Source: a virus
Length of the DNA stretch: 64,000 bases
Direction: 5' to 3' (one strand)
IMG/VR virus record: IMGVR_UViG_3300043395_002615
Coordinates: 1 to 64,000 of that record
The notes under the pieces: model-generated
What the model was told of the DNA's origin: nothing
Databases searched by the model: none
The model's input: the letters and a program-made list of their open reading frames with translations, nothing else
Part shown: piece after piece, positions 4,701-64,000 of the stretch
Layout: every line of letters starts with the position of its first letter
How positions within the stretch are numbered: position 1 is the stretch's first letter
Position numbers and translations under genes: made by a program

Positions 4701-7700
4701 CTAATTAAATCCACCAGTTAGCGTTATAGGCTCAACACCAAGACCGCTGAACTGCAATTCCCTATTTGTAATCTGCTGCCATCTATCAACTCGCTCAGAG
4801 ATAGATACATGACTTATTGGATTATAAACATTATCGCTAGTAATAACCCAATCATTTTCATCGCCAAGCCAATTGGTTGTAAGACTCATTTCATACTGGC
4901 CTGTATCAAGATCCATAGTAGAAGAAACACCTCTAACATAATGGATATATGTTTCACTTGTATTTCTTTCAATAATACGAATCTGATCATTTATCTCTAT
5001 ATTAGGATTAGCAACGCATGTAAGGCTTCCAGCTCTCTGACTAAACCAAATCTGAAGATTGATGAGTTCGGCCATCAATTTCTGCTCTTCTTTGTCAGTA
5101 AAGGTATTATCGATCCAGATTGCTGGACGAATGATATTCCTTAGAGCGGGAACCCCCGGCCTAATCTCATCATTAGCAGATCCAGGAACGAAACGAACAT
5201 ACGAAGTTGCTCGTGGGTTGTTGGGATCTGGCTGGTCCGAGCCAATAATAATCTCAGACCTAAGAGAATCACCACCAATGGACACCTGATACTGCTTTAA
5301 TGTTGTGGTCTCGTTTATTTCTGGGATAAACGGCTCAGCACCGGGGGTACTAGAGCTTACTCTGGTATAGTTACCTTCTTCATCATATGTAACATAGATT
5401 TTTTGACCATCACCATAGGAATCGAAGTTTCCAGCAGACCACCAGTTAGGACTTTCAAACCTTGCCCCACCCTGTTGGTCTATAAAGAAGTTATATCCAA
5501 CAACCTGCTTAATTTCATTTATACAGTCAATGATAGTTCTCTTATCAAACTTGTCACCAGTAATATCTTTATCAGTAAAAATACCGGTAGATTCTATATT
5601 ACCAAAGATAGAAGGTCTATCATTTGCATCTGGAGAACCGGGATAGCCAACCCAAAGATCAGCACCAGTATCCGTCTGAACACCAAAGAAACCATCATAT
5701 CTTAGAACAAGCCTAGCGTTAGATCTAGTGTATGTCCTTGTATTAAATAATGCAGAACCTGCAGCTGAATACACAACAAAATTACCATCTGACTGCATTA
5801 CAGCATAAGCACCAGAGTTTCCATCAGTCTCGGATTCCCAAACAACATTTTGAAGAGTAGTGGTACCTCCGACAGTAATGAAATTTCCAGTACCTAAAAC
5901 TAGATTTCCATCTGTTTGCATAATAAGAGTATAGTCATCTACCTGCTCATAGCTTCCAGATGCTAAAGTTTTCGTAGCCCAAGATTTAATTGTCTCAATA
6001 TTTGAGTCATAATAAGTAAAGCCAGACCAGCAAAGCATATCTTTAATAATATCAATATATTCTTTAAAATTACCCTGCTTCCAACGGTAACCAGTTTTAC
6101 CCCACCATCCAGGCTGGCCCCAGAATCTGGCATCATAACTAAGAACAGAACCATTAGCAACAAGAACCCAGAAACCCTTACCATCTGGATCTCTAGCCAA
6201 ATCCCAAACCAAATAACGAAAGAATGACCAATCATTAACTTTATCTTCTGGAATCTTAAGATCAATCTGGGGATTATTCTGGTAAACATATGATGTTCCC
6301 TGCTTAACAGCGTCACCAAAAGCAGCAATATGACCATCAGCAAATGCAATCCAATAACCATCACCAGATTTAGTAGAAGTCATGCCATGACACCAGTTGC
6401 CATAATCAACACTAAAAGAATCTGCACTATTTTTATTATAGATTCTATTTACTAAACCGCCATAATTTTGCACATTTCCAAATGCCCAAACTTGACCAGA
6501 TCCATCTGTAACCCAAAATCCCATCTTTTTTGGATGAGCAGCTATAGCAGTTCCCCTTCTAGCCCAATTATATGCAGTAGATGGCTGCTGTCCAACATCA
6601 AAGCCAGCAGGACTTTGACCAAAACCTGTACCATAAGGTTTGCCAAATAGATACTTATAAGTCTTCCCACTATTAATCATTGATGCTGTAACTGAAGTAT
6701 ATGGCGTCTGTGCAAACGATGGAGATGCATCACCAAAACCTCTAACACTTCCATCAGAATAAACAACCCAATAACCATTACCAGTATAGGTAACAGCCAT
6801 ATTCATAGCAGCTACGCCAACGAGAGCAAACTGCTCGCCACGCCAAGGAACAATATAATGTCCATAATGATTTGCTTCACCAAAAGCATAAACCCTACCA
6901 CTTGGATCAAGAACCCAATATCCCTCACCAGATGGATGTGCAGCCATTGAAGTTGCCCCTGGCTTCAAATATGTTCCACCAAGACCGCGAACATAATGAA
7001 TACCATTCACACCACTAGCATACGGTGGGGATACAAAATTTACCGGACCAAAAGCTGTTGAATCAAAATCAGCAGCATCACCAAAACCATGAACATAACC
7101 ATTGGACTCACAAACCCAATAACCACGAACAGGATGGGATTCCATAGCATAAGTCCAAGGAAGTTCCGTGAATGGCACAGAATATTCAGAAGTCTTATTT
7201 CCAACAGCCCTAAATACAATATCTCTAATACCACAACGGTAATTATTTCCAGAACCATCTGCCATACCTGAATAGGTAAGTGGATCTCCAAAAGTAATTC
7301 TAATCTGATCAGCTTTATACCAATAAGAACCAAAATCTCTCAGAACAGATATTTCATTCTCAGCAGGATTTGCAACACCAAAGTCAACAGAAATTTCGCG
7401 CTCATTACCATCAGGTGGCATAAGGGGAATCTGAATCTTCTTAACATAAGGAATAGAGCCGCCATAATCTGGAACAGTTTCTGTACCAAACCAAGAGCCA
7501 TTATACTTAATAGAAATATATGCAGTATATCCACCAGCCCAAGGAGTAAAACTCATACCTTGAATACGACGACCGCTACCACCAGTCTTCTCTACATCAA
7601 ACTCCCACCAAAAATATCCATACCCATTGTTTCCGGTGGGCTGGGCTTTAGCTGGAGAAAGTGCATATGTATTCCTATTGCCATCTGAAGCATGACTACC

Positions 7701-8549
7701 TTTATGACCAAAGATAGAATAATCGTAGGAACCAAAAATATCATCAGTGGCAGAATCTTTATAAATTGCTCTCACTTCACCAAATGAAGCATTGAAAGAA
7801 CCCTTTGGATCTGGACCAAAAGGAGAATCAAAAGCAGAAACACCGGGAGACTTATACTCAATAGGATAAAGACTCTGAGGAACTAGAGGGGGATAGGTGA
7901 TCTGTTCAAGAAGGAGTCTACCAACATCACGGCATTGAATGGTAAGCATTCCATCTGTGCCAGTCGAAATAGAATCAATCAACCAAGCACCCGTTATCAT
8001 GATATTCTCATCATCAATTGCTTGCTGAACAGAAACGTCGTTACCGCCATAGCCTTGATATGTTCTAATTAAAGCATTAGGAACAATAACATTTGTCCAA
8101 TCAAAATCTGGATCATAGGTTCCATCTTTAAGAGTGGCACCCTGTCCCGGCTCTTGATTCCATAAAGCCTGCGCCTCAGCAGACTCACCACGCTTAGGCC
8201 AAAAATATCCAGGTCGGCCAAGCTGATTAGTGAGTTCAGGAACAATCACACCAGTAGCAGCACTATTAGAATAGTGCCACTGGTTATACATTGCAATATT
8301 GCAAGTTGCAATATCCTGAGAAGTCGAACGCTCAATCTGAATTGATTTAATATTAGGAATCTCTACCTCAACCTGATCGTTAGCAGAGTCCTGCCAGTAA
8401 CGAAAAGGTCCACGGACAGAACCATCATAAACCGGGTCTGTGGTTTTTAGCGTCCAGTCAGGCTCAATCGTAACTCTGCCACAAGGCTTAGTATCACCAA
8501 TCATTACACCTGAACGAACAATATTATGTATTGTCTGATTCAGTCTCAT
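4701..8549 (-). CDS. Tail-tip protein with propeller-like repeats and bulb-lectin domain (1282 aa)
   Basis: Large tail protein. The N-terminal part looks like a tail hub/discoidin-like region. Residues about 470-795 carry six repeats of the form G-Y/F-W-V followed by a short G-turn and FGDA-like end (GYWVCESNGYVHGFGD, GYWVLDPSGRVYAFGE, GYWVVYSDGSVRGFGD, GFWVTDGSGQVWAFGN, GYWIAFADGHIAAFGD, GFWVLVANGSVLSYD), spaced as expected for blades of a beta-propeller. Residues about 860-960 have bulb-type mannose-lectin repeats (MQTDGNLVL, MQSDGNFVVY, LRYDGFFGV). The C-terminal 250 residues resemble a baseplate-hub domain. It is likely the cell-wall-glycan binding tip; the target sugar is unknown. Confidence 0.8.
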   Translation of the reverse strand: MRLNQTIHNIVRSGVMIGDTKPCGRVTIEPDWTLKTTDPVYDGSVRGPFRYWQDSANDQVEVEIPNIKSIQIERSTSQDIATCNIAMYNQWHYSNSAATGVIVPELTNQLGRPGYFWPKRGESAEAQALWNQEPGQGATLKDGTYDPDFDWTNVIVPNALIRTYQGYGGNDVSVQQAIDDENIMITGAWLIDSISTGTDGMLTIQCRDVGRLLLEQITYPPLVPQSLYPIEYKSPGVSAFDSPFGPDPKGSFNASFGEVRAIYKDSATDDIFGSYDYSIFGHKGSHASDGNRNTYALSPAKAQPTGNNGYGYFWWEFDVEKTGGSGRRIQGMSFTPWAGGYTAYISIKYNGSWFGTETVPDYGGSIPYVKKIQIPLMPPDGNEREISVDFGVANPAENEISVLRDFGSYWYKADQIRITFGDPLTYSGMADGSGNNYRCGIRDIVFRAVGNKTSEYSVPFTELPWTYAMESHPVRGYWVCESNGYVHGFGDAADFDSTAFGPVNFVSPPYASGVNGIHYVRGLGGTYLKPGATSMAAHPSGEGYWVLDPSGRVYAFGEANHYGHYIVPWRGEQFALVGVAAMNMAVTYTGNGYWVVYSDGSVRGFGDASPSFAQTPYTSVTASMINSGKTYKYLFGKPYGTGFGQSPAGFDVGQQPSTAYNWARRGTAIAAHPKKMGFWVTDGSGQVWAFGNVQNYGGLVNRIYNKNSADSFSVDYGNWCHGMTSTKSGDGYWIAFADGHIAAFGDAVKQGTSYVYQNNPQIDLKIPEDKVNDWSFFRYLVWDLARDPDGKGFWVLVANGSVLSYDARFWGQPGWWGKTGYRWKQGNFKEYIDIIKDMLCWSGFTYYDSNIETIKSWATKTLASGSYEQVDDYTLIMQTDGNLVLGTGNFITVGGTTTLQNVVWESETDGNSGAYAVMQSDGNFVVYSAAGSALFNTRTYTRSNARLVLRYDGFFGVQTDTGADLWVGYPGSPDANDRPSIFGNIESTGIFTDKDITGDKFDKRTIIDCINEIKQVVGYNFFIDQQGGARFESPNWWSAGNFDSYGDGQKIYVTYDEEGNYTRVSSSTPGAEPFIPEINETTTLKQYQVSIGGDSLRSEIIIGSDQPDPNNPRATSYVRFVPGSANDEIRPGVPALRNIIRPAIWIDNTFTDKEEQKLMAELINLQIWFSQRAGSLTCVANPNIEINDQIRIIERNTSETYIHYVRGVSSTMDLDTGQYEMSLTTNWLGDENDWVITSDNVYNPISHVSISERVDRWQQITNRELQFSGLGVEPITLTGGFN

Positions 8550-8551
8550 AA

Positions 8552-8932
8552 TTACCAGTCCAAGACAATAGCTTCAATAGAGTAATTATGACGCCAAGGA
8601 TAGTTAATTGATCTTACCCTCGTTGGGTTGAAACTTTTAATATAAATCCAGAACTCTCTACCGAGATCATCAGTCAAACGAATCTGATTTCTTTTTAGAT
8701 ACCAATCATTAAGAGTATTAAACTGGCTTTCAGTTAAGATTGTACCAGAGAAAGAAAGACTTGCAGGACTCTCTCTGCCCTCAAAAGCAAGAGTCTGGCC
8801 GTTAGGGGCAGCCGTAGCCTCATAAGAAATATTCTTAGATCTACTTGGATACCCGCCATCATTAGGATTAATTTCCCAATTATAAGTCTCATTACCTACT
8901 GGATCATAAAATTCCCACGCAACTCTTGGCAT
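8552..8932 (-). CDS. Minor tail protein, distal-tail-like (126 aa)
   Basis: 126 residues immediately downstream of the tape measure and upstream of the tail-tip protein, the usual place of a distal-tail or tail-hub adaptor gene. The start has AGGAG five bases upstream. Two beta-sheet-like halves are joined by an aromatic-rich segment (LNDWYLKRNQ). The role is inferred from gene order and size; no diagnostic motif was recognised. Confidence 0.65.
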   Translation of the reverse strand: MPRVAWEFYDPVGNETYNWEINPNDGGYPSRSKNISYEATAAPNGQTLAFEGRESPASLSFSGTILTESQFNTLNDWYLKRNQIRLTDDLGREFWIYIKSFNPTRVRSINYPWRHNYSIEAIVLDW

Positions 8933-8940
8933 CTTAACTC

Positions 8941-11900
8941 CTAGTACCTTCTAGATTCCAAACCTGATGTGCCAACATTCATGGCCTTAGCAAGAGAATC
9001 AACAACCTGACCCTCACTCATACCATTGTTAACGACAACCTGAACTTGGATATTACGATTATCCTGATAGCCAACAGATGGACCATTTGCACCACCGCTG
9101 ACATTACCAAACTGGCCGGACTGATTTAACCTACGAACCTCATAGAGAGTAGGAAGCATAAGGCTTGTTGGAAGATTAGCCTGAAGATTGCCACTAATGT
9201 CGTCTTTAAGATTCTTGATAGTAACCTCAAGATCTCTGAACTGCTTAGTGCCAGGGATAAGAGTAGACTTCAAACCCTCAAGATAATTAGCATACTCAGT
9301 CTTAGTGATCTGGTCAGTATCCAATAGATACTTGTATTCATCAAGCTTACCCTGGAAGATAGCGTCACGAGCAGCCTTCTCAGCAGAAATAACACCAGCC
9401 CTTAGATTATTAATTTCTGCAGCACCCTTACCGGCATTAATTGCCTGAGCCAACTGCTCTCTAGCAGCAGCCGCGGCAACCTGAGCAGCACCAATATCAT
9501 CACCAATAGCAGCCAACTCTGCCTGACGAAGGCTGAACTGCGAATTACGAACGTCATTCATTGCGTTCGTCATTGCTCTCTGAGCATCAATTAACTGTCT
9601 TTGTGCAGCAATTCTTTCATCGTTAGTCTTTGCTTCAGCCAGCAACTGCTGTGCAAGGGTAAGGTCATACTGAGCGTCCTGAACAGGATCTTCTGTCTGA
9701 GCCTTAGCAAGATCAAACATCGCCTCCCTTCTTCTCTTAAACGCTTCACGCTGAGCACGCTCTGCTGCAATAAGTTCCATCCAAGCCTGCATACGCTCTT
9801 CTGGGCCAACAGCATTTGCCATATTCATTCTGGCAATATTTACATCATACTGAGCCTGATCAAGACTGTCCTGTGATCCAAGAGCCTTTAGAAGCTGAGC
9901 AAACGTTTTAGCTCTGTTATTTATATTATCCCTAAGAGCAGCGCGTGCTGCAATCTGTGCAGCAACAGCATTAGCAGCGCCCTCCTTGTCGTTTGCAGCA
10001 ACAGCAGCAGCATAATCCTTATTAGCTTGATCAAGATCAAGAACAGCCTGAGCGACAGAATCCTTGTTTGCAGCAGCCTGAGCCTTAGCAATACCACGAA
10101 CAGCATCAGCAACAGCCTTAGCAGCATCAATCACAGCCTGCTTAGCTTCACGACGTTTAGCATCTAACTCATCAAGAGTCTGGGCATCCAAACCATCAGC
10201 AACAGCTTTTTGGTAATCTTTTTCTGCCTGCTGAGCATCCATCATCGCTTTAGCTACAGAATCTTTGTTTGCTTTGGCTTTGTTTAGATTTGTTGCAGCT
10301 TGAGCTCTTTGCTGGTATGCGGAGAACTGTGCTTTCTTATCATTAACCTCATTGCCAGTATCGCCAGGAAGCTTTCCAGTAGTATTAATACTATTAATAA
10401 TGGCATTTGCGCCAGAAATAGCCTGATCATATGCCTGAACTGTTGGATCATTAGCTTTAGCTCCAGTCATCTCCATGAATAGAGCGCGTTGAGTTTCGAG
10501 ATCCTTCTTTCGCTTCTCCATCATTGCTTTAACTTGATCAATTGATAGTGATCCATTACTTAAAGCAGTTGTTATAAATGTTATAAAGTCATCAGCAGTT
10601 TCACCAAAAGCAGTTTCCCAACCCTTAGTAAATGTAGACCAGTTACCAACCAAAGTTCCAAGCTGACCCTTAATAGCAGCAACTCTAGTTTCAATAGGAA
10701 TTTTTATTGGCCTACCAGCAATCTCTGCAGCCTCCTCGGCAGTGGCTGCATTCTGAATCATGGCAATGGCCATCTCTTTTTGAGTCTGAACAAGCTCAAG
10801 TGCAGCTTTGCGAAGATCTTCTCCAGTTAAACCAGAATTAATTGCAGTTTGAATAGCTGCAGCCTTCTGCATAATACCAGCTATTGTTGTTGGATCGCTA
10901 GTAAGATTGATAATATCAAGAGTTGCAGTTAAAGCCTTCTGAGCTTGCTCATTAACAAAACCGTTTATAGTTTTATCAATATTGAATAGCTGTTCATATA
11001 AAAGTTTTTTATTACCAGTAACTTTAGGATCATTAATCTTAGCAAGAATAGATGCTCTTAACTCATTCAAACCAGCAAGATATGATTCTGGAGAAATTCT
11101 ACCAAGATCAAGATCTTTTTGTAGCTGTTCAAGAGACTTCAGAGAAGCAGCGGCAGCGTCATCAAGAAGACCATTAGCCTCAAGTAATGCCTTTACCCTA
11201 GGATCATTCTCCCCAAGTTCAATAATTTTATCAAGAACCTCTTTAGCCTGTTTCTGTTCTGCATCTGTATATTTTCTATCCTTATCCTGTACTATTTCTT
11301 CCAATGCTTTAGTTGGATTAGCTGAACCAAGAGCAGAAGCAATATCTCCATCAAGATTATTTAGATTAAAACCTAGAGCTTCAGAAATTTTTGTGAGTCT
11401 CTCTAAGGCGGCTGCTCTAAGCGCATCACCAGCATCAGCCAAATCTTGGTCAAACTGGAAAGCCCTAGAATCACCAAGTCTACCCTCACCAGCATAAGCA
11501 TTTCTAATATATGCCTCTACGTTAAATTTACCCTTATTAGTGCCAGTTTTAATTCTGGCTTTATCTGCTGCTTGCTTTGATTTTTCTTCAGCCTTCTGCT
11601 GAGCTGGGCCTACTCCGACATTGCCAGCTGGATTGATATCAATTCCCCCAGCAGTAATTCCTTCATCAGCAATTACATTTGGAAGAGCATTAGCACCACT
11701 AAGTCCAGAAATTCTTTCCAAGAAGAAGTTTACAGCAGACTGCTGATTAGCTAAAATATCTAATATTCTCTGCTCATTTTCATCAAATGCAGACTTAGCA
11801 AAAGCAAGAGCCTGAGCATACTCTGCCTCACTTTCATATCTTGCACCAGTAAAGAATCCAGATAAACGTGCACCAATACTTATACCAGCATTAACCTCTC

Positions 11901-59882: not shown

Positions 59883-59965
59883 GGGAGTGCTGCAGAGATG
59901 GCGATCTGCACCAGACTGTAAATCTGGCGTCGTTGACTTAGGGGGTTCGAATCCCTCCACTCCCA
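59883..59965 (+). tRNA. tRNA-Tyr(GTA)
   Basis: 83 bases, type II tRNA. Acceptor GGGAGTG/CACTCCC (59883-59889 / 59958-59964), discriminator A, no encoded CCA. Anticodon stem CCAGA/TCTGG, loop CTGTAAA, anticodon GTA at 59918-59920. Long variable arm as for bacterial Tyr. TTCGAAT T-loop. U33-G34-U35 makes it a standard substrate for queuosine-type transglycosylases. Confidence 0.93.
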
Positions 59966-59967
59966 CT

Positions 59968-60105
59968 ATGATAGTATTATTTTCTATTATTTTTGCTATT
60001 GGAGCTTGGATAGCTCTTTGGGCTTCAGATGAATCAAAAGATGGCCTAATGATACTTGGCATAAGCATCTGTTGTATTACTATTTTTTTCGCATCATTAA
60101 TTTAG
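59968..60105 (+). CDS. Possible small membrane protein (45 aa)
   Basis: Open frame MIVLFSIIFAIGAWIALWA then DESKDG and MILGISICCITIFFASLI, two hydrophobic helices joined by a polar turn. It begins three bases after the tRNA-Tyr 3' end with no ribosome site; it could be translated from the processed tRNA transcript. Spacing to QueF (seven bases) favours it being real, but this is weak. Confidence 0.4.
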   Translation: MIVLFSIIFAIGAWIALWASDESKDGLMILGISICCITIFFASLI

Positions 60106-60112
60106 GATTCCA

Positions 60113-60568
60113 ATGGACGAATTAACGCTTCTTGGCTCAGAAGTTGAATATAACTTTGATGAACCAAATAAGATTCACTTAGAAAAATTTGAGTATAGCC
60201 AGTATAAATTTCATCAATTAATTTCTTTTAAGACAGATGAATTTACTTCACTATGTCCAATGACTGGACAGCCAGATTTTGCGTCACTAGATATATGCTA
60301 TATTGCAGATAAGTTTGCCATAGAAAGCAAATCTTTAAAGTTATACATATTTAGATATAGAAATCATGGAGCCTTCCATGAGGATTGCATTAATAAAATA
60401 ACTCAAGATATTATAGATGTAATTGATCCTAAATATATTAGAGTTATAGGTGATTTTTCTAAGCGTGGTGGAATTTCTATAAAACCTATAAGCGAATACT
60501 GTAGAGATGGCTTTAAAAAGCCGGTTGACCTAATAAATCAATACGATAATTTTAATTTCAAAAATTAA
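60113..60568 (+). CDS. queF: NADPH-dependent preQ0 reductase QueF (151 aa)
   Basis: QueF reduces the nitrile 7-cyano-7-deazaguanine (preQ0) to the amine preQ1. Motifs: FTSLCPMTGQPDF with catalytic Cys48 and Asp55, the QueF signature ESKSLKLY at 71-78, RNHGAFHED (His89, Glu90) and RGGISIKP. These match the short Bacillus-type enzyme, including the catalytic Cys and Asp, so it should be a true reductase rather than the archaeal amidinotransferase form. AGGA is five bases upstream of ATG. It lies between tRNA-Tyr and tRNA-Asn and upstream of a preQ0 transporter. Confidence 0.95.
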   Translation: MDELTLLGSEVEYNFDEPNKIHLEKFEYSQYKFHQLISFKTDEFTSLCPMTGQPDFASLDICYIADKFAIESKSLKLYIFRYRNHGAFHEDCINKITQDIIDVIDPKYIRVIGDFSKRGGISIKPISEYCRDGFKKPVDLINQYDNFNFKN

Positions 60569-60576
60569 AAAGTTAT

Positions 60577-60649
60577 TCCCAGATAGCTCAATTGGCAGAG
60601 CAGTTGACTGTTAATCAGCGGGTTGTAGGTTCGAGTCCTACTCTGGGAG
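60577..60649 (+). tRNA. tRNA-Asn(GTT)
   Basis: 73 bases. Acceptor TCCCAGA/TCTGGGA (60577-60583 / 60642-60648), discriminator G, no encoded CCA. Anticodon stem GTTGA/TCAGC, loop CTGTTAA, anticodon GTT at 60610-60612. T-loop TTCGAGT. Like the tRNA-Tyr, it carries U33-G34-U35. Eight bases after the QueF stop and likely cotranscribed. Confidence 0.93.
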
Positions 60650-61228
60650 CTATTGGTTGGCTTCAAAAAAATCTTTGGCAAAGCCGGCAGGCGTCATGGA
60701 TCTAAACTCTTTGGTCTGCTCAGATGCGCCACCAACCTTCCAAATAACACGACCTTGAGTGTTTTCTACTTCGTGGCGTTCTGGGGTATTGAAGTCTCCC
60801 CATAGCCAAGTCATCTTTTGCCATGGATCGCCATGATGATACGGATGAAACTTGTATTGCACTGGTCCAAGTTCGGGGATAAGTTTATGAATCCTGCTCA
60901 TAGGATTTTCTACTACCCAAAATTTTAGTGTATCTACAGATTTGTAGAAATTTACTATTTCCATAACTTTCAATACCAAATCAACTGCCTCTGCAGTCCT
61001 ACCGTCAGCGTCTTTCTCCTTAAAGAAACGTGAACCTGAAAGAGAGAAGTGGGTGCATGGTGGTGCGGCAAGAATGCCGTAGACTTCTGGAAACTCTTGA
61101 TAGTCAAAATCAAAAATATCAGAACCAAGTTTGATATCGATTTGATGAACTTCATAGCCTGAATCTTTATATGGTTTACTCCAATTTCCAGAGTAATCAA
61201 ATAAAGATAATATAACTTTATTAGACAT
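60650..61228 (-). CDS. Short cytosine-C5-methyltransferase-like protein (192 aa)
   Basis: ATG 61228 (MSNKVILSLFDYSG) chosen; an upstream extension of 66 codons is low in coding character. Motif I LFDYSGNWSKP, motif IV APPCTHFS with Cys58, motif VI VVENP (Glu107-Asn108), and RSMTPAGFAKDF like motif X. There is no room for a normal target-recognition domain, so it is either a minimal phage enzyme or acts on a small substrate or modified base. It sits in the 7-deazaguanine block but on the opposite strand; its stop abuts tRNA-Asn. Confidence 0.8.
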   Translation of the reverse strand: MSNKVILSLFDYSGNWSKPYKDSGYEVHQIDIKLGSDIFDFDYQEFPEVYGILAAPPCTHFSLSGSRFFKEKDADGRTAEAVDLVLKVMEIVNFYKSVDTLKFWVVENPMSRIHKLIPELGPVQYKFHPYHHGDPWQKMTWLWGDFNTPERHEVENTQGRVIWKVGGASEQTKEFRSMTPAGFAKDFFEANQ

Positions 61229-61285
61229 AATATATACCAAATTATAGTTAATATAAGTTGTTTTAACTTTATATTGCAACCCGAT

Positions 61286-61314
61286 TTGACACCGGCTAAA
61301 ACCAATGATACAGT
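61286..61314 (+). promoter_or_regulatory. Sigma-70-type promoter giving a leaderless mRNA
   Basis: TTGACA (61286-61291), 17-base spacer, TACAGT (61309-61314). The expected start of transcription, seven bases on, is at the A of the ATG at 61321. No ribosome site is present before that ATG. Leaderless transcripts are frequent in Actinobacteria. Drives the gene at 61321 and probably the transporter at 61578. Confidence 0.75.
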
Positions 61315-61320
61315 CGTTAG

Positions 61321-61530
61321 ATGGACAATTTATTATACTTAGATTATTTTGGCGTTGCTGACGAAATAGAAGGCTTTGGAATTCCAGAAGATGAACTTCT
61401 AACACTTGAAGATTTTGAAAAACCATTTATTGAAAAAGTTTTAGTATGGGCAAAAAGAAATAATGCACCATGGCCTCCAAGTTTTCAGTGGGCCGAAGAC
61501 CACTGGGACGTTCGTGACAAAATGTTATAA
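61321..61530 (+). CDS. Small acidic hypothetical protein (69 aa)
   Basis: ATG coincides with the predicted transcription start. MDNLLYLDYFGVADEIEGFG, then EDELLTLEDFEKPFIEKVLVWAK and NNAPWPPSFQWAEDHWDV. Acidic and helical with several Trp. No family recognised. It may be a regulator or partner of the following preQ0 transporter. Confidence 0.6.
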   Translation: MDNLLYLDYFGVADEIEGFGIPEDELLTLEDFEKPFIEKVLVWAKRNNAPWPPSFQWAEDHWDVRDKML

Positions 61531-61577
61531 ACGGAAAAGACCGCTGATAGAATTTCGACTCTAACGAAAGGCTAATA

Positions 61578-62237
61578 ATGCTAACTAAAGTTAAACCAAC
61601 TGCAGCGATTATTGTTGTAGCAGTATATACCGCACTTCAGTTGATCTCTAATATTGCAAGTACCAAAATTGGTATGATAGGAACTTTTGCAATCGATATG
61701 GGAACGTTCCTATATCCTCTAACATTTACCATGAGAGATGTTGCACATAAGATTCTTGGCAAGGCGCATGTTAGAATCATGATTCTAGTTGCTGCACTTC
61801 TAAATCTTGCTATGGTTCTTTACCTATGGTTCTGCACACTTTTCCCTGCAGATCCTTCATGGCCACTAAACGAAGAGTTCAGTGCAGTTCTAGGACCTGT
61901 ATCAAGAATTGTAGTTGCTTCGATCCTAGCCCAGTTAATTGCAGAACTTGCTGACACTGAAGCATACCATTGGTTTGTGACAAAGATCACTAAAAGATTC
62001 CAGTGGGCACGAGTTTTGGTATCAAACGCAATTTCGGTTCCACTAGACAGCGTGGTGTTTGTTCTGATTGCTTTTGCCCCGATCACACTGTTCGGTTCGC
62101 AGGGTTTGGAATGGTCAATCGTCTGGTCAATTTTCTGGACCAACATCATTTTCAAGGGAATTGTAACACTAGCAAGTATGCCAATGATTTATGTAACACC
62201 AGACAGGGACTGGGATAGCGATAAATCTGATGCCTAA
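61578..62237 (+). CDS. yhhQ: YhhQ/VUT-family preQ0 (7-deazaguanine precursor) transporter (219 aa)
   Basis: Six hydrophobic segments and the YhhQ pattern: LQLISNIASTKIG, then GTFLYPLTFTMRDVAHKILG at about 46-65 (the gtilfPltfilsDv box) and SVPLDSVVFVLIAF. The acidic ELADTEAY in the fourth segment is also conserved. Family members import preQ0 and sometimes preQ1 or queuine. Placing this gene in a phage lets the infected cell scavenge the precursor rather than make it from GTP; I see no FolE, QueD, QueE or QueC here. Confidence 0.9.
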   Translation: MLTKVKPTAAIIVVAVYTALQLISNIASTKIGMIGTFAIDMGTFLYPLTFTMRDVAHKILGKAHVRIMILVAALLNLAMVLYLWFCTLFPADPSWPLNEEFSAVLGPVSRIVVASILAQLIAELADTEAYHWFVTKITKRFQWARVLVSNAISVPLDSVVFVLIAFAPITLFGSQGLEWSIVWSIFWTNIIFKGIVTLASMPMIYVTPDRDWDSDKSDA

Positions 62238-62257
62238 AAATTAGGAACCACGTATCT

Positions 62258-62288
62258 GGCCGGGGCGTAAAAACCCCGGCCTTTTACG
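62258..62288 (+). terminator. Rho-independent terminator after the transporter gene
   Basis: GGCCGGGG (62258-62265) pairs with CCCCGGCC (62274-62281), eight-base loop, followed by TTTTACG. It lies 20 bases after the transporter stop and just before the 3' end of the convergent ParB-TGT gene. Confidence 0.9.
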
Positions 62289-63611
62289 TTAGTGCCTCTT
62301 TAATCCTCTGAAATAATTTCTTTGAACATCCCTATCAAGATTTTCATAACCATTCATTCTTGCAATATCAAACATAATATTTCCGAAAGAAATTGCACCA
62401 CATATGAACCTAACATTTTCTGCAACGATTCCCTCATCAGTTGATCTGCAGTCAAAACCTTCAAATCTATAATCTAAATTATAGAAAGAAGTTCTGATGC
62501 CATCACTGGTATAGAAACTTCCAACTGCAGCAATCCTGTTCATTGAATTGTTATCAAGTGAAACAACATCGCTACCCATCATCTGCAGATATCTACGCTG
62601 AACACCCCATGGTCCACCTAGTAGGTGAACTTTTCTTCCTTTAAATTTTTCTGGATCAACCTGTGTCATACCATAACTGGATGGGCAGCTATATCCTAGA
62701 ACGTATTGATCTGGTATGTCAGCGATACAGTCATACTTTGGAATTACGATCACATTTTCAGCGTATTTATTTAACTGTTCTGCCTGTTCCATTACTTCAT
62801 CAAAAGTATGGTATTTGGTATCGTATCCTGCTGTTTCTTCTTCTGTCATTAAATCTATGACCGTACAGTATTTTGGCCTGAATGTTTTAACATTCTTTAA
62901 ATGGTTTTCAAAACTATATTTTTTAAAATCTATATCAATAAATATTTCATCGTACATAGATTCTTTATATACGCCATCTGTCTGGAATCCCATTTTCCAT
63001 CCAGCATCATGTGCTGCGTGACGTAATCTATCTGAAATACTTGAACAGTATATGATGTCAATATCAACTGCTAGTTTAGCTTTCAATACTTCACCATTAT
63101 ATTTTTTGTTTAGAATTTGATCATAGACATATCTAGAAGTTTTAACATCCTTGTCTTCTATGATATATACTTTGCCATCATCACCAATTCTTTTTCTTGA
63201 ATCGATATTCAGTTCTTTTCTGACACTAGCAACTGTCATATCTGATACGCCTAATTCTTTTGCAATAGAATTATTTGATCGTTCAGGGTTATCTGATAGT
63301 ACGTCAGAAATAATGGCACGTTTCTGTGCAGAATTTAGGTGGCGTCTGGCTACGTTCATAGAACGTGCATAGTTTCTTTTTTCTTCTTCGGTCATTCCTT
63401 TTCTGATGATAGTCGGGCATTCTATTCCCAGGTCCTGTGCAATTGACCATCTATGGTGACCATCTAGGATATTACCATCTTCATCAATTTCTACAGGATG
63501 AATAATACCATGTTCTTTAATAGAATCATACAATACTTCATATTCATGTTTATTTAATGATGGAAGTAACTGATACTTATATTCTGACCTATGAAAAACA
63601 GGAACTTTCAT
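62289..63611 (-). CDS. ParB domain fused to TGT/DpdA-like 7-deazaguanine transglycosylase (440 aa)
   Basis: ATG 63611 (MKVPVFHRSEY); a TTG three codons earlier is open. Residues 1-75: ParB-like domain with DGHHRW at 50-55. Residues 112-133: helix-turn-helix (NNSIAKELGVSDMTVASVRK). Residues about 185-375: TGT-like barrel with FIDIDF (224-229), YCTVIDLMTEEE (248-259), VIVIPKYDCI and YVLGYSCPSSYG (287-314), HLLGGPWG (329-336) and SDVVSLDNNS (347-356). Asp353 is the candidate nucleophile, by analogy with the FDS/DC Asp of TGT. Such DpdA-like enzymes exchange guanine in DNA for preQ0 or preQ1; the ParB/HTH half would supply DNA binding. Confidence 0.8.
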   Translation of the reverse strand: MKVPVFHRSEYKYQLLPSLNKHEYEVLYDSIKEHGIIHPVEIDEDGNILDGHHRWSIAQDLGIECPTIIRKGMTEEEKRNYARSMNVARRHLNSAQKRAIISDVLSDNPERSNNSIAKELGVSDMTVASVRKELNIDSRKRIGDDGKVYIIEDKDVKTSRYVYDQILNKKYNGEVLKAKLAVDIDIIYCSSISDRLRHAAHDAGWKMGFQTDGVYKESMYDEIFIDIDFKKYSFENHLKNVKTFRPKYCTVIDLMTEEETAGYDTKYHTFDEVMEQAEQLNKYAENVIVIPKYDCIADIPDQYVLGYSCPSSYGMTQVDPEKFKGRKVHLLGGPWGVQRRYLQMMGSDVVSLDNNSMNRIAAVGSFYTSDGIRTSFYNLDYRFEGFDCRSTDEGIVAENVRFICGAISFGNIMFDIARMNGYENLDRDVQRNYFRGLKRH

Positions 63612-63807
63612 AACCAACAACTTTCACACGCGAAAAACTAAACACAATCTTACACTAATAATATTTTTTTAAACCCAAATACGTCAAATATAGAAAACGT
63701 CATAAACAGCCCTAGAATGCGATCTAACAGCATCCAAACAAAACATATACAACTATACCACAACACATCTAGAAACCCGTTAAAACGCATTACAGCGCCC
63801 TACAGGA
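63612..63807. other. Intergenic region upstream of the ParB-TGT gene
   Basis: Gene-free. Contains the minus-strand promoter at 63658-63687 and two copies of TGACGT about 16 bases apart on that strand (near 63682 and 63698), which could be an operator. The plus strand is strikingly poor in G and rich in A and C. Confidence 0.45.
63658..63687 (-). promoter_or_regulatory. Sigma-70-type promoter for the ParB-TGT gene
   Basis: On the minus strand TTGACG (63687-63682), 18-base spacer, TATTAT (63663-63658). Transcription would begin about 40 bases before the ATG at 63611. A second -10-like TAAGAT lies slightly downstream. A TGACGT repeat overlaps and precedes the -35. Confidence 0.6.
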
Positions 63808-64000
63808 CTATTTCTGTTTCAAACGTACCATATCAATAACATTAACCAACGGAATATTAATTCCATTAGCCACAGAACCATCACCATCATCACTAGTAAC
63901 CAACGTCAAATACCCAGCAATAGGATTAGGTTTAACCAAAAACCCAACAGACTGAACACTAGTCCCAGCAACATCCAAACATTTCAAATCAACCCAATCA
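63808..64000 (-). CDS. Unknown protein, partial (N-terminus outside window)
   Basis: Open frame from the right edge to TAG at 63810-63808 encodes about 63 C-terminal residues including LVKPNPIAGYLTLVTSDDG and NIPLVNVIDMVRLKQK. Leu codons are almost all TTG and Gly mostly GGG/GGT, unlike the CTT/CTA-rich ParB-TGT gene beside it. Function not recognisable. The codon shift may mark a separately acquired gene. Confidence 0.5.
   Translation of the reverse strand, partial: DWVDLKCLDVAGTSVQSVGFLVKPNPIAGYLTLVTSDDGDGSVANGINIPLVNVIDMVRLKQK

Follow-up and report, generated by a model that had tools for sequence, protein, structure and literature searches.

The three genes of the locus

The DNA analysed here, referred to as the window, comprises positions 1 to 64,000 of the IMG/VR virus record IMGVR_UViG_3300043395_002615 (67.5 kb in total, G000 in the following). 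Within 60113-63620 it carries a set of three genes, queF and yhhQ on the plus strand and, on the minus strand, a gene encoding a fusion protein of a ParB-type part and DUF6610 (PF20314), a Pfam family without assigned function. From the bare sequence, these genes had been read as a phage salvage system for 7-deazaguanine DNA modification (the original prediction). Their coordinates and family assignments are borne out by Pfam and NCBIfam profile matches. The genes and the two parts of the fusion protein, including a domain with the predicted fold of tRNA-guanine transglycosylases (TGTs), are:

60113..60568, plus strand: queF, NADPH-dependent preQ0 reductase of the unimodular QueF-II type (PF14489, TIGR03139, motifs, 4f8b)
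61578..62237, plus strand: yhhQ-type queuosine-precursor (preQ0) transporter, predicted, 219 amino acids (PF02592, TIGR00697)
62289..63620, minus strand: ParB_N-helix-turn-helix-DUF6610 fusion, predicted DNA-guanine transglycosylase (PF20314, PF02195, AlphaFold2, fold matches)
63192..63620, minus strand: ParB_N and helix-turn-helix (HTH) module of the fusion, residues 1-143 (PDB ParB/Noc matches by sequence and fold)
62292..63071, minus strand: predicted TGT-fold catalytic domain of the fusion, residues 184-443 (AlphaFold2 and PDB fold matches)

The QueF protein matches PF14489 (5.5e-30) and scores above the curated cut-off of TIGR03139 (QueF-II, preQ(1) synthase; 140.3 bits vs 86.9). Among solved structures its closest relative is 4f8b (2.5e-38), and an alignment that includes this protein together with seven further QueF sequences confirms that Cys48, Asp55 and the ESKSLKLY NADPH motif are intact, as had been claimed for both residues and the ESKSLK box. 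This favours a nitrile reductase rather than a QueF-L amidinotransferase. The protein is closer to bacterial QueF and to that of Streptococcus phage Dp-1 (48.9% identity to the latter), and the QueF-encoding precedents Dp-1 and HVTV-1 gave dPreQ1 (PMC6884629). A queF match in a Helicobacter phage was not used as evidence, since it lies at the edge of its record beside genes such as those for a ribosomal silencing factor and an isopentenyl pyrophosphate (IPP) transferase.

At the level of the family, the call of a YhhQ-type preQ0 transporter is upheld by matches to PF02592 (2.4e-36) and TIGR00697 (queuosine precursor transporter; 87.5 bits vs a cut-off of 50.95), so that a preQ0 transporter is the predicted function. 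Against NF008406, a more specific model built on E. coli YhhQ, the protein stays below the cut-off (23 vs 252); it is 54% identical to a YhhQ adjoining DUF6610 in another surveyed locus (L020). YhhQ has been noted in some phages, uncorrelated with any group (PMC6884629).

Fold and residues of the ParB-DUF6610 protein

Translation of the third gene may start at TTG 63620, the ATG at 63611 being likelier. The protein matches PF20314 over residues 203-378 (2.1e-41; 142.2 bits vs a gathering cut-off of 27) and PF02195 (ParB_N) with 9.7e-5. In phages vB_MseS-P1 and Rivra, similar modules form part of MT-A70 methylase proteins and share 54% and 52% identity, respectively, with the ParB module of the window protein. 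The module probably supplies DNA binding, because near relatives sit in these methylase proteins and a separate ParB lies between dpdA and queF of Arthrobacter phage Mufasa8. The Mufasa8 arrangement with a stand-alone ParB gene (L059 4391-6366) also suggests that ParB accompanies canonical DpdA too.

The DUF6610 domain was modelled with AlphaFold2 and compared with known structures by Foldseek and VIA-align. A C-terminal TGT barrel, on which the original prediction depended, is indeed predicted (mean predicted local distance difference test, pLDDT, 84.2; predicted template-modelling score, pTM, 0.83). At E<=0.001, 46 of the 48 matching PDB chains are tRNA-guanine transglycosylases, the remaining two being an aldolase and an epimerase. 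The top VIA-align match is the archaeosine TGT 1iq8 (Z 13.8, 3.8 A, 223 residues). Among viral models outside DUF6610, the best match is the queuine tRNA-ribosyltransferase of phage Mufasa8 (5.5e-7). Annotated phage queuine transglycosylases also match by fold; as to DpdA2 (Vibrio phage nt-1 type), the fold search gave only a weak match to a protein of nt-1 (R9TGF0, E 2e-3). In the full-length model (mean pLDDT 76, pTM 0.56), the N-terminal half is ParB/Noc-like and forms a domain distinct from the TGT half.

Residue conservation was assessed in 20 aligned DUF6610 domains. Asp229 (62934-62936), Asp256 (62853-62855) and Asp356 (62553-62555) are invariant in these homologues and also in a second alignment. 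Asp356, in the context VVSLDNNS...RIA, is paired with MFDCVLPTRIARNG of bacterial TGT in a short, non-significant profile alignment, and it stands opposite the aspartate of the FDC motif of bacterial TGT in non-significant profile alignments only. The three aspartates may form a TGT-type catalytic set, subject to this mapping of residues.

The protein had been described as TGT-like, fused to ParB/HTH, and as DpdA-like. The first description stands for the predicted fold and for the ParB_N/HTH part, and fails for the Pfam TGT profile (PF01702), which has no match at E<=10 across the whole window record. As to the second, DpdA1 (phrog_887; 9g/Dp-1 type) is not recognisable, since the profile matches in Dp-1 and Mycobacterium phage Funsized but, at E<=0.01, nowhere in G000; the family that is recognised is DUF6610, also present in the HVTV-1/HCTV-1 clusters. 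The DUF6610 profile yielded no relevant match among PDB sequences. Sequence profiles give no significant match between DUF6610 and TGT, and the TGT assignment therefore rests on fold.

DUF6610 neighbourhoods in other viruses

We surveyed 26 viral DUF6610 loci, of which some belong to viruses that are duplicates or nearly identical, as well as three bacterial contigs, and searched the whole records for gene families; most records are fragments, for which single absences are weak. Supply genes adjoin DUF6610 in almost all virus loci that are not truncated, the exceptions to this linkage being G004, a fragment ending just past DUF6610, and the HF2-type haloviruses. The strategies of supply are graded. 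Full synthesis (QueF, QueC, QueD, radical SAM, FolE) is encoded in G003, G006, G010, G012, G015, Funsized, HVTV-1 and HCTV-1; transporter, QueF and QueC, without QueD, FolE and radical SAM, in G013 and G014; transporter and QueF only in G000 (the window record), G001 and G002 (a relative of the window phage, L004 below); and the transporter without QueF, QueC, QueD and FolE in G007, G008, G009 and G011. The last group predicts dPreQ0, unless the host supplies the reductase. DUF6610 directly adjoins queF, queC or queD in G003, G006, G010, G012, G015, Funsized and the HVTV-1/HCTV-1 clusters, and it adjoins yhhQ in G002, G007, G008, G009, G011, G013, G014 and HCTV-1.

The lack of queC, queD, queE and folE, first remarked for the gene set itself, extends to its surroundings: no QueC, QueD, FolE or radical-SAM (QueE) gene was found in the 67.5-kb G000 or the 79.2-kb G001. 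The two records overlap (99.99% identity over 11.6 kb) and together span about 83 kb, in which no synthesis gene occurs.

The same three genes form a tight overlapping operon in L041, a contig of a Peptococcaceae metagenome-assembled genome (YhhQ 6278-7045, QueF 7046-7477, ParB-DUF6610 7443-8639). By inspection, terminase- and portal-like genes lie downstream of its ParB-DUF6610, and we regard L041 as an unrelated prophage. Another record, L008 (MT836020.1), first taken as a phage with yhhQ-queC-queF, was dropped, as its gene content looks like a bacterial chromosome fragment.

Further observations concern two loci, L026 (8783-11117) and L027 (9925-12096), with YhhQ, QueF and QueC and without QueD, FolE and radical SAM. 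This set suggests import of the QueC substrate 7-carboxy-7-deazaguanine (CDG) rather than preQ0. Right after ParB-DUF6610, L027 encodes a second ParB-type protein (8729-9850), 31% identical to the first over most of its length, whose barrel half has decayed to the point of hardly matching the DUF6610 profile; it is possibly a non-catalytic partner subunit. A GNAT acetyltransferase gene in the same operon (10937-11371) overlaps queF and queC, and its product could acylate preQ1 or dPreQ1 to give a further modified base.

Several known systems share parts of this arrangement. HVTV-1 and HCTV-1 (Druskaviridae) likewise encode a DUF6610 protein and QueF, HCTV-1 also YhhQ; unlike the window phage they are archaeal viruses with full FolE-QueD-QueE-QueC, and no ParB domain is recognised in the DUF6610 protein that they encode. 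In HVTV-1 DNA about 30% of G is present as dPreQ1, no viral DpdA was found and a host enzyme was suggested (PMC6884629). Gp69 of HVTV-1 is a DUF6610 protein (PF20314, 2.7e-56) and adjoins folE within the 7-deazaguanine cluster. The phrog_887 DpdA was found in none of the DUF6610 virus records searched, HVTV-1 included, other than Funsized. DUF6610 (gp69) is thus a candidate for the transglycosylase missing from HVTV-1 in 2019. In 2023 Cui et al. reportedly gave the name DpdA4 to a subfamily confined to archaeal viruses, and gp69 is probably their DpdA4 protein. If so, the novelty lies in the presence in bacteriophages, the ParB fusion and the salvage-only supply. Our survey suggests that this type of enzyme extends beyond archaeal viruses to bacteriophages, where it is fused to ParB.

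The Mycobacterium phages Funsized, Rinkes and Knocker resemble the window phage in having ParB-DUF6610 directly followed by QueF, whereas Funsized differs in its full synthesis pathway, a canonical DpdA and the lack of a YhhQ match. Dp-1, with dPreQ1 DNA, likewise groups QueF with a transglycosylase and a precursor transporter (QueT); it differs in having full synthesis, a DpdA1-type enzyme and, in QueT, a transporter of a different family. DpdA-only phages, e.g. Salmonella phage 7-11, would similarly depend on preQ0 from a source other than the phage (PMC6884629), although with a DpdA1/2 enzyme and no QueF.

The closest comparison is offered by L004, whose DUF6610 is 81% identical to that of the window phage. 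Here ParB-DUF6610, a different queF and yhhQ are contiguous, with overlapping genes. In the window, ParB-DUF6610 and yhhQ converge, and queF lies 1 kb off, past a methylase-like gene; the position of queF in L004 is taken by 51 bases with a hairpin. The queF genes differ in lineage as well as place, the L004 protein being of the Funsized type (48% identity to Funsized QueF), whereas yhhQ and DUF6610 are kept in both phages. The simplest reading is a loss of one queF and a gain of another; whichever state is the older, QueF activity would be retained, as expected if it is needed. The remaining features of the region are:

59883..59966, plus strand: tRNA-Tyr (GUA), upstream of queF (ARAGORN; Rfam RF00005, 43 bits)
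60577..60650, plus strand: tRNA-Asn (GUU), directly downstream of queF (ARAGORN; Rfam RF00005, 67.8 bits)
62258..62281, plus strand: hairpin between the convergent yhhQ and ParB-DUF6610, an 8-pair G+C stem followed by a T run

Apart from the two tRNAs, an Rfam search found no preQ1 riboswitch or other credible element near the window genes. The tRNA pair is also present in L004, where by inspection it flanks a nuclease-like gene instead of queF; the slot between the two tRNA genes (59883-60650) resembles a cargo slot. Between tRNA-Asn and yhhQ lies a small C5-cytosine-methylase-like gene (60650-61426, minus strand; phrog_757, 1.2e-40), with a homologue in L004, which is a possible second DNA-modification gene. 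The only match of the phage terminase is one uncultured record from mangrove soil. At and past the end of the window (record ~64.0-66.0 kb; L002 3000-5000), G+C is 0.55-0.70 vs ~0.36 before, and the overlapping record G001 stops at window position 63901; the rise may be a chimeric join or a foreign insert.

A probable salvage route and its alternatives

We consider it likely that the three genes serve a salvage type of 7-deazaguanine DNA modification. YhhQ would import preQ0 made by other bacteria or the host, and QueF would reduce it to preQ1. The ParB-HTH-DUF6610 protein, a putative DNA-guanine transglycosylase with a predicted TGT fold, anchored to DNA through its ParB/HTH part, would then swap guanine for preQ1 in phage DNA. 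Alternatively, preQ0 might be inserted first and reduced in the DNA, either order being conceivable for Dp-1 and HVTV-1 as well (PMC6884629). Phage DNA modified in this way would resist host restriction enzymes. In this model we infer the substrates, the order of reduction and insertion, DNA as the target, and protection. Both the functional link of the three genes and the preQ1-type product that had been deduced from the presence of QueF hold on sequence, predicted fold and gene neighbourhood.

Several observations weigh against this model. Pyridoxine-phosphate synthase (PdxJ) barrels reach Z 13.3-13.5 over about 180 residues, so that Z alone does not separate them from TGT, although TGTs align about 40 residues more. 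TM-scores of the DUF6610 model to TGT are moderate (0.4-0.5), and hhalign comparisons of DUF6610 with bacterial TGTs and three phage DpdAs are not significant. HF2-type haloviruses carry DUF6610, and family searches found no supply gene in them. Funsized possesses canonical DpdA in addition to ParB-DUF6610, which may there be an auxiliary or differently specific enzyme. Finally, the window queF is outside any common operon with yhhQ and ParB-DUF6610 and sits between two queuosine-type tRNA genes.

This last position points to a role in tRNA: imported preQ0 would be reduced to preQ1, with which the host TGT and later enzymes would modify the phage tRNA-Tyr and tRNA-Asn, aiding NAU decoding, and ParB-DUF6610 would be unrelated. 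Both tRNAs have GUN anticodons, the pair is kept in L004, 73-81% of the Tyr, Asn, His and Asp codons are T-ending, and a boost of queuosine has been proposed for phages with pathway genes and without DpdA (Hutinet 2019, PMC6884629). Nevertheless, we regard this role as unlikely. A Pfam search found no tRNA-type TGT in the window record, the L004 queF adjoins DUF6610 and yhhQ, away from the tRNA pair, and ARAGORN detected no tRNA in the Funsized and halovirus stretches examined. Moreover, the linkage of DUF6610 with YhhQ, QueF or QueC at many loci would be left unexplained.

Somewhat less probable still is that ParB-DUF6610 is a DNA-binding or partition protein other than a transglycosylase, its barrel binding 7-deazaguanine as a sensor or helper, e.g. 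for a host DpdA. Such a function would suit the canonical DpdA of Funsized, the decayed paralogue in L027 and the fact that H. vallismortis, the host of HVTV-1, has its own DpdA (PMC6884629). It fits poorly with the three invariant aspartates, with the absence of phrog_887 DpdA from the other DUF6610 virus records searched, and with the archaeal versions, which have no recognised ParB part and are still in the cluster. That transporter and QueF are accidental passengers whose closeness to DUF6610 is meaningless is very improbable: the window genes are indeed not one operon, but the adjacency recurs across a large number of divergent loci, and in L041, L027 and L004 the genes even overlap.

Returning to the salvage model, we tentatively propose, with much less confidence than in the model itself, that the phage makes none of the base, depending on imported preQ0, and that the ParB/HTH part loads the transglycosylase onto DNA, where it might act as a clamp that slides or seeks sites, for processive or targeted replacement. 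If true, a ParB-loaded transglycosylase would assign a role to DUF6610 in bacteriophages and archaeal viruses alike. With graded strategies of supply such as those surveyed here, the anti-restriction armour of a phage could hinge on a metabolite released by other bacteria.

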